Under the pieces are notes generated by a model. The model ran no database searches. It saw only the letters and a program-made list of their open reading frames with translations, and was not told the origin of the DNA. The translations under genes and the position numbers were made by a program. From assembly GCF_017549005.1 (NCBI RefSeq), contig NZ_JAFYYT010000003.1, forward strand, positions 62,001 to 126,000: 64,000 nucleotides of DNA, given 5' to 3'. This DNA is from Ruminococcus sp. (GTDB lineage Bacteria > Bacillota > Clostridia > Oscillospirales > Ruminococcaceae). Shown here piece after piece: positions 38,181 to 40,208 of this stretch (its first letter is position 1; the number at the start of each line of letters is the position of its first letter).

Positions 38181-40208
38181 TTACTCTTCAAAAGCTGTGA
38201 GTATTCTTTCGATACGCTCTGCCAGGTCGTCTGTGAGGACCTTGTTCTCCTCTATTTCAGTGATTATGTCCTGACCGTAGCTTCTGATATAGTTCATGAG
38301 GTCTGTGCGGTATTCTCTCAGCTCCTTGAGGGGAATGCCCCTGAAGAAGTCGTGCTGTGCGGCGTAGAGAAGTATCACTTGTTCATAGTGCGGGAGCGGA
38401 TTGTACAGAGGCTGCTTCAGCAGCTCCGTAAGCATATGGCCGTGGTCAAGGAGCTCCGTTGTGGACTGGTCCAGCTCAGAGGAGAACTGTGTGAATATCT
38501 CCATTTCCTTGAACTGTGCAAGGTCGATACGGAGGTTTCCCGAAGCCTTCTTCATGGCCTTTGTCTGAGCGGCGCCGCCTACACGGGATACGGAAAGTCC
38601 GTAGTTTACCGCAGGACGGAGACCCGAGTTGAAAAGCTCGCTCTCCAGGAATATCTGACCGTCGGTGATAGATATTACGTTTGTAGGGATATATGCGGAG
38701 ATATCGCCTGCAAGGGTCTCGATGATAGGGAGAGCCGTCAGCGAACCGCCGCCGTGCTCGTCGTCAAGACGGCTGGAGCGTTCGAGAAGTCTCGAATGCA
38801 GGTAGAATACGTCGCCGGGGTAAGCTTCACGTCCGGGAGGACGGTGGAGCAGAAGCGACATGGCTCTGTAGGCAACGGCGTGTTTTGAAAGATCGTCGTA
38901 TACTATGAGTACGTCCCTGCCCTTGGACATGAAGTACTCCGCAATAGCCGTGCCCGAATACGGGGCGATATACTGGAACGGTGCGGGATCACTGGCGGAA
39001 GCGCATACAACTACCGAATAATCCATAGCGCCGTACTTTTTAAGGGTGTTGACTATCTGTGCAACAGTCGAGGACTTCTGTCCTATGGCGACATAGATGC
39101 AGATAACGTCCTGACCCTTCTGATTTATGATGGTGTCAACGGCGATAGAGGTCTTGCCTGTCTGTCTGTCGCCGATTATGAGCTCACGCTGACCGCGTCC
39201 GATAGGGAACATTGAGTCGATAGCGAGTATACCCGTCTGCAAAGGCGTATTTACGGGCTTACGCTCGATAACGCCCGGAGCTTCGCGCTCTATGGGGAAG
39301 TAGTCCTCGGCTTTTATCTGTCCGAGACCGTCTATAGGCGCTCCGAGAGCGTCGACTACTCGTCCGAGGAGCTCGTCGCTTACGCCGATACCTGCTCTTT
39401 TGCCCGTTCTGATAACGGAAGAGCCCTCCGTAAGGCCGTGGTCGTCGCCGAGAAGAACAACTCCGACGGACTTTTCCTCCAGGTTCTGAACGATGCCTCT
39501 GATACCTGTCTCAAATTCAACAAGCTCGCCGTACATTACGGAATTCATACCGTAAACTCTTGCGATACCGTCGCCGAGACGCGTAACGAAGCCTGTTTCC
39601 GTAGCTCCCGACTTTACGTCGAAATCGCGCACCTCTGTTTTGAGTACTGAGATGATATCGCTGTTTTTGCTCTTTGAAGCAGAAACAGATTCCACGTATT
39701 CCGTAGCCTTGTTCTGCAGAGTGTCCTTCATGAGACGGAGGCTTGTGCGGTAGCTCTTGTCGTATTCAAGGTCGCCCGCATTGAGTATAAATCCGCCTAT
39801 GATGTCGGGGTCGTGCTTGTATTCGATATCAACGTCCTCTTTGACGAATTTATCCATGATAAACTGTCTGAGGTCTGCCTGCTGAGCCTCGGTAAGCGGC
39901 GTAACATAGCGTACTACAGCCTTGATGCTGCCCTGCTTGTCAAGGAGGATGTCCTCATATTCGTCGAGTATCTCGTCTATGCGCCCGATAGCTCCTCCGC
40001 GGACTGCGCTGAACAGGAATTTCTGCATATTCTCGGGGAAAAGCTTGCTTATCACGGCTCTCTTCTCGTCGTGGGTGACGAGAGGGTTTGAAAGCGTATC
40101 TCCCAGGTCGGGGCAGTTCTCGAGCACCTTTCTTGTTTCGGAGCAGTCTGTCTGAGAAACGTCAAGGCGGACAAGCTCTTTCAGCAGCTCTCTGTCTGAG
40201 TCTCTCAT
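38181..40208 (-). CDS. atpHA: Fused F1Fo ATP synthase delta-alpha subunit
   Basis: 675 residues in one uninterrupted frame. Residues 1 to ~168 are a delta (OSCP) subunit whose first helix is shortened: the usual YAxALFxxA opening is missing, but the [28 protein letters not shown] and the end [29 protein letters not shown] are clear. A short Ser/Lys linker (about 169-182, SVSASKSK) joins a complete alpha subunit: N-terminal NSDIISVLK, Walker A GDRQTGKT (346-353), Arg-finger region [13 protein letters not shown] [15 protein letters not shown]. No Met or RBS lies at the junction (near 39670-39700). The start overlaps the atpF stop (ATGA). Normal F1 has three alpha and one delta, so a fusion poses a stoichiometry problem; proteolytic release of delta is one possible answer. 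Confidence 0.93.

Follow-up and report, generated by a model that had tools for sequence, protein, structure and literature searches.

The window, a 64,000-nucleotide stretch of DNA from the gut and rumen bacterium Ruminococcus sp., carries on its reverse strand an atp operon in the gene order B-E-E-F-(HA)-G-D-C, in which a single open reading frame of 675 residues, atpHA (38181..40208, (-)), joins the delta and alpha subunits of F1. It is preceded by atpB, encoding subunit a (41211..41924, (-)), two near-identical tandem copies of atpE, encoding subunit c (copy 2, 40981..41208, (-); copy 1, 40726..40953, (-)), and atpF, encoding subunit b (40205..40693, (-)), the stop codon of which overlaps the ATG of atpHA (ATGA). 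Downstream lie atpG (subunit gamma, 37258..38166, (-)), atpD (subunit beta, 35779..37173, (-)) and atpC (subunit epsilon, 35353..35763, (-)), whose homologues occur in the same order in relatives.

Within the fusion, the delta N-terminal domain (residues 1-93, 39930..40208; AlphaFold2, VIA-align and dN/dS) is followed by the delta C-terminal domain with its 14-residue motif (residues 94-165, 39714..39929; Pfam OSCP to residue 164, dN/dS and AlphaFold pLDDT), a variable linker (residues 166-183, 39660..39713; Shine-Dalgarno (SD)/start scan and linker alignment) and a complete alpha subunit (residues 184-675, 38184..39659; TIGR00962 and dN/dS), including a conserved N-terminal helix (14 residues). 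In Pfam, the OSCP match covers residues 15-164, and the alpha domains fall within residues 204 to 673. The protein scores 94.5 bits against PF00213 (OSCP; cut-off 22.3) and 770 bits against TIGR00962 (F1 alpha; cut-off 484), and the alpha domains PF02874, PF00006 and PF00306 all exceed their cut-offs; the b domain (PF00430) is absent from the fusion protein, b being encoded by the separate atpF. These matches, together with conservation in relatives, bear out the claim of the first-pass annotation that one frame holding delta and complete alpha is a true gene fusion. What that annotation observed of the fusion as a whole is partly confirmed, and how it read the fusion is partly supported. Annotation probably hides such proteins, the best NCBIfam model naming this one just 'subunit alpha'.

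The host genome assembly (56 contigs, 93.8% complete) contains one OSCP/delta match and one F1-alpha match above cut-off, both inside the fusion, and a single gene each for subunit b (PF00430) and subunit a (PF00119); no second atpA, atpH, atpF or atpB was found in it. The absence of a separate atpH, originally noted for the operon, thus holds on a search of this assembly. On another contig (C52, about 98566-101393) lie two adjacent ATPase frames of 463 and 591 residues. Their sizes suggest V/A-type B and A subunits, in which case a second rotary ATPase may be present in the cell.

Conservation in Ruminococcus and spread in the phylum

The same fused AtpA recurs in relatives. A fused long frame with a delta match is present in 32 of 35 same-genus genomes, two of these frames being short (577 residues in G032 and 545 in G035); of the remainder, G016 and G021 give no match, and G015 has a delta match solely as a separate gene, on a contig of 9.3 kb. 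From a search across named genomes, the best 80 of 559 matches were kept (76 of them titled Ruminococcus), and delta and alpha share one open reading frame at all 80 loci, a set ranked by likeness to the fused query rather than an unbiased sample. Seventy-seven of these frames are full length, the exceptions being L113 (contig end), L083 (disrupted frame) and L133 (frame begins late), and the set includes isolates of R. flavefaciens, among them ATCC 19208, FD-1, 007c, MC2020 and YL228. Two apparent operons in FD-1 (L077, L078) are 99.98% identical over 4183 bases and represent an assembly overlap. Additional operons without the fusion, in G015, G020 and G033, are placed by the alpha tree well away from the Ruminococcus fusions and may be contamination or a second enzyme. 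The tandem atpE of the window (40726-41208) has two copies at 40 of the 80 loci, one at 39 and none at the last, some loci being cut by contig ends.

The window fusion belongs to a wider family of delta-alpha fusions that is invisible from the single sequence. A junction profile, with 'fused' defined as a stop-free match spanning the delta C-terminal domain and alpha, identified such matches in at least 70 of 394 genomes drawn from the order, at least 37 of 391 from the class and at least 22 of 348 from the phylum. The draws overlap (the window genome and G053 appear in all three, G453 and G513 in those from class and phylum), and the matches come from at least 123 distinct sampled genomes of the phylum, the window's own included; the frames in G177, G506 and G989 are short and lie at contig ends.

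Five architectures occur among the loci read. A near-full delta joined to alpha is found in the window's genus and at nine loci elsewhere, while the commonest form, at 60 loci, carries only the delta C-terminal domain ahead of alpha. A tandem fusion in L207 (G133) places two delta C-terminal domains before alpha, within residues 1-172 of the frame and recognized by Pfam as two OSCP stretches. Triple fusions of 735-767 residues, which join a b-like membrane helix, the delta C-terminal domain and alpha, are present at 16 loci (L022, L023, L193, L197-L201, L206, L209, L211, L212, L214, L216, L218 and L220), each with a separate atpF of 138-152 residues; the Pfam b domain exceeds its cut-off in L022 and L206 but falls short of it in L193. 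The fifth arrangement is unfused, a stand-alone frame of 72 residues in L024 (8008-8226) encoding the delta C-terminal domain alone, upstream of an unfused alpha.

Several peculiarities accompany these loci. The L207 protein would supply six delta C-terminal domains per F1 if uncut, and the alpha frame of L241 opens (residues 1-61) with about three repeats of a 21-residue unit, followed by the delta C-terminal domain. Subunit c measures 111-135 residues, with a signal-peptide-like N-terminus, at 14 of the 17 C-domain-only loci listed (e.g. L026, L050, L171, L177 and L254), the exceptions being L185 (186 residues) and L025 and L252 (72 residues); subunit a bears an N-terminal extension in the C-domain-only loci listed. 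In the four near-full types listed, subunit c has 72-77 residues.

The 113 rows of the alpha tree hold 86 fused loci (60 C-domain-only, 16 triple, nine near-full and one tandem) in addition to the genus of the window, with L054 and L056 entered as unfused. One supported branch gathers the genus of the window together with the nine near-full fusions from elsewhere, the tandem, 50 of the 60 C-domain-only fusions and the unfused L230. A separate clade comprises the triple fusions, and the remaining ten C-domain-only fusions fall in other parts of the tree. Approximately unbiased (AU) tests on 64 of the 113 rows, with the second and third groups chosen after the tree was seen, reject a single origin for all fusions (p 2.6e-45), a placement of the triple fusions within the main group (p 0.00076) and a main group without L230 (p 0.0026). 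Delta-alpha fusions in the phylum have several origins.

Fold, constraint and the delta-alpha junction

AlphaFold2 predicts residues 1-93 to form a six-helix bundle (pLDDT about 72-88) that superposes on 1abv and 6n2y_I in VIA-align. The delta first helix, initially reported as missing, is in this prediction merely shortened and altered. Confidence is lower in the delta C-terminal domain (pLDDT about 50-70), and both models are weak there and at the junction: the full-length model has a mean pLDDT of 60 and is weak in alpha as well, and the fragment model falls under 50 from residue 176. The docking place of the alpha N-terminal helix is visible in neither model, both being weak in that region, and VIA-align of the full-length model listed alpha chains only.

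Across 12 close sequences, dN/dS is 0.032 in the delta C-terminal domain, the same as in the alpha body (0.032), and 0.015 in the alpha N-terminal helix; it reaches 0.11 in residues 1-18 and 0.12 in the rest of the delta N-terminal domain, and 0.30 in the linker, the fastest-evolving part of the protein. The delta C-terminal domain, which is the b-binding part in known enzymes, matches alpha in tightness of constraint. Constraint on the N-terminal domain is weaker, yet that domain is far from neutral and is under purifying selection. The ratio of N- to C-terminal divergence is 2.5 in ten Ruminococcus fusions versus 1.57 in a small control set (five unfused deltas from a single genus). Three small groups of other near-full fusions give 1.08, 1.70 and 1.87, and all 24 unfused deltas together give 1.09, a saturated value. 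Because the ratios are mixed across sets, loosening of the N-terminal domain is suggestive for Ruminococcus, neither proven nor general.

Columns conserved in unfused deltas are kept at an average of 0.43 in the N-terminal domain (22 columns) versus 0.49 in the C-terminal domain (22 columns), a similarity that weakens the argument for the N-terminal domain as a disarmed brake. Two of the four conserved columns in helix 1 (Y8, A11), and six of the eight within or adjoining helix 5 (G59, N63, L68, E70, K71, R73), are kept in 0.1 or less of the Ruminococcus fusions; helices 1 and 5 form the alpha-binding groove.

The linkers vary in length and sequence among fusions, and 25 aligned linkers share no motif. 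In-frame starts led by an SD (dG <= -5) were counted near the junction and, as background, in other stretches of the same genes. In type A (the window and the 80 loci, 81 genes), such starts occur at the junction in 7% versus a background of 8%, and 98% of true starts carry an SD. The corresponding figures are 33 versus 39% for the other near-full fusions (n=6, including L207), 36 versus 33% for type C and 31 versus 28% for type D; true starts with an SD fall to 50, 71 and 62% in these three sets, so the test is weaker there and strong only for type A, and it is blind to starts lacking an SD. The same scan finds an SD-led start at the beginning of beta in five of five in-frame gamma-beta fusions, and it is therefore able to detect one. 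A restart from an SD-led internal start is thus not supported, no such start being conserved at the junction, and each F1 should receive three fused chains, barring cleavage of the chains or a restart that needs no SD. The stoichiometry problem raised from the window's letters, an expected three deltas per motor instead of one, is supported to the same extent.

Engineered and natural counterparts

By textbook rule, an F-ATP synthase has one stator arm and one a-subunit, which fixes its H+/ATP ratio. According to Ueno et al. 2025 (PMC12229609), Bacillus PS3 delta without its N-terminal domain was fused to alpha, and the resulting deltaDeltaN-alpha FoF1 carried 0, 1, 2 and 3 stalks in 15, 51, 26 and 8% of particles by cryo-EM, always with a-subunits, and had an H+/ATP ratio of 5.8. 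The one-arm rule is therefore breakable by engineering, and the study guessed that nature breaks it too; its authors propose that a delta N-terminal domain positioned on the axis keeps the enzyme to a single stalk, and they noted natural fusions (Acidaminococcus fermentans, without the N-terminal domain; UniProt G4Q3K6, A0A1I2C5T3). The early impression that a delta-alpha fusion was undescribed does not survive this report, and the principle has been in print since 2025; a fusion that keeps the N-terminal domain is a different form. Among titles and abstract openings in open-licence PubMed Central, preprints not included, no further paper on delta-alpha fusions was found, nor were the near-full form of the window, its spread, or the triple and tandem fusions.

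The window protein and the engineered PS3 enzyme (PMC12229609; PDB 9jc1 by title) both join the delta C-terminal domain in frame to the alpha N-terminus, with no separate delta gene, in the window's case within a 93.8% complete genome. The PS3 construct as described is man-made, lacks the N-terminal domain and displays up to three stalks, whereas the window protein keeps residues 1-93 as a predicted six-helix bundle; it is the C-domain-only relatives that match the engineered design. The A. fermentans protein is likewise a natural gene fusion, but by the same account it lacks the N-terminal domain retained in Ruminococcus. The mycobacterial b-delta fusion (PDB 7jg5, 7njl, 9vkp) also involves delta in the stator, but there delta is joined to b instead of alpha, so that a single copy is enough for each enzyme; b is separate in the window, and in L022 and other relatives it is joined with both delta and alpha. 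The N-ATPase (alternate F1F0, TIGR03324/TIGR03305) is another F-type enzyme with an unusual stator, and lacks delta according to PMC5706428, whereas the window protein carries delta and scores 620 bits against a TIGR03324 cut-off of 750.5.

Stator number and alternative readings

The reading given most weight, at somewhat short of an even chance, is that uncut delta-alpha, present three times per F1, allows the enzyme to carry more than one stator arm, its N-terminal domain probably being a relic that does not strictly limit arm number. The gene would make one stable polypeptide, three copies of which would enter each F1, so that every alpha has a delta flexibly tethered to it. Each copy of the delta C-terminal domain would keep the docking surface for the b stalk, allowing one to three b2-a stator arms, while at most one of the three N-terminal domains would fit the threefold axis atop F1. 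With helices 1 and 5 altered, the N-terminal domain would probably aid folding or binding and no longer impose a strict one-arm limit. The Ruminococcus form would then be an intermediate, with three C-terminal docking sites present and the brake weakened, and more than one arm could therefore form. We infer, along with the uncut chain and the additional arms, a raised H+/ATP ratio, which would suit a cell that lives by fermentation at low proton-motive force.

In its favour are the conservation of the fusion across the genus, the lack of any other delta or F1-alpha match, the background-level frequency of SD-led starts at the junction, the alpha-like constraint on the delta C-terminal domain and the N/C divergence ratio in Ruminococcus. 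By analogy, the stalks with a-subunits and the high H+/ATP ratio of the engineered deltaDeltaN-alpha enzyme (PMC12229609) argue for this multi-arm reading, as may the relatives that go further, with C-domain-only, tandem and b-delta-alpha fusions. The triple fusions would be the strongest hint of several natural arms, since each alpha in them comes with a membrane helix of its own. Counting against the multi-arm reading are the retention, under purifying selection, of a predicted folded N-terminal domain, the statement of Ueno et al. that this domain restricts stalks to one, the similar loss of conserved columns from both delta domains, and the N/C divergence ratio, whose control is small and which varies among near-full fusions. 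More tentative still is the extension that several Bacillota lineages independently made up-to-three-arm enzymes by placing delta, or b and delta, on every alpha, with Ruminococcus an intermediate having three folded N-terminal domains and an H+/ATP ratio above that of textbook enzymes. If true, this intermediate would show the brake on arm number disarmed before it was lost. A fusion that includes the N-terminal domain, thought to enforce the one-arm rule, is present in cultured rumen cellulose degraders, and opens in a growable organism the questions of whether that domain limits arm number and whether natural multi-arm ATP synthases exist.

A close rival, possible but on balance doubtful, is an uncut fusion that builds a one-arm enzyme: one N-terminal domain would sit on the axis, one C-terminal domain would bind b2 and two deltas would be idle, the benefit being that delta is never lost or limiting. 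It draws on the predicted fold being retained and selected, on the proposal of Ueno et al. (PMC12229609) and on the single genes for b and a, although single genes give no information on protein ratios. The similar loss of consensus residues in the two delta domains points the same way, since it does not set the N-terminal domain apart. Harder to reconcile with a one-arm enzyme are the near-loss, in Ruminococcus fusions, of half of the conserved helix-1 columns and most of those in the helix-5 region and the existence of sister fusions that dropped the N-terminal domain altogether.

A precursor, in which a protease cuts the linker to yield free delta and alpha in normal stoichiometry and surplus delta is degraded, is unlikely. 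Proteolysis may be compatible with the linker sequence, which evolves fastest, varies in length and is predicted with low confidence, but the aligned linkers share no motif, delta would be produced at threefold the required amount, and the triple and C-domain-only fusions make a uniform precursor scheme less natural. Internal initiation, giving free alpha and thus one fused and two free alphas per F1, is very improbable: the SD-led starts in gamma-beta fusions indicate that the device exists in these bacteria, but at the delta-alpha junction such starts are no more frequent than background. A sequencing or assembly artefact, for which no favourable point was found, is already refuted by recurrence of the fusion across same-genus genomes and named loci, isolates included.

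The in-frame fusions of atpG to atpD in relatives (gamma-beta, 786-802 residues) are found at L190 (also examined with Pfam), L204, L210, L243 and L179 (genomes G378, G165, G111, G674 and G294), the L179 frame running into Ns. Such a protein links rotor and stator covalently, and the same enzymes also have a C-domain-only delta-alpha fusion. Each of these loci has one in-frame start in the stretch scanned, located at the beginning of beta and preceded by an SD, so that one gamma-beta chain and two free betas per F1 are possible.
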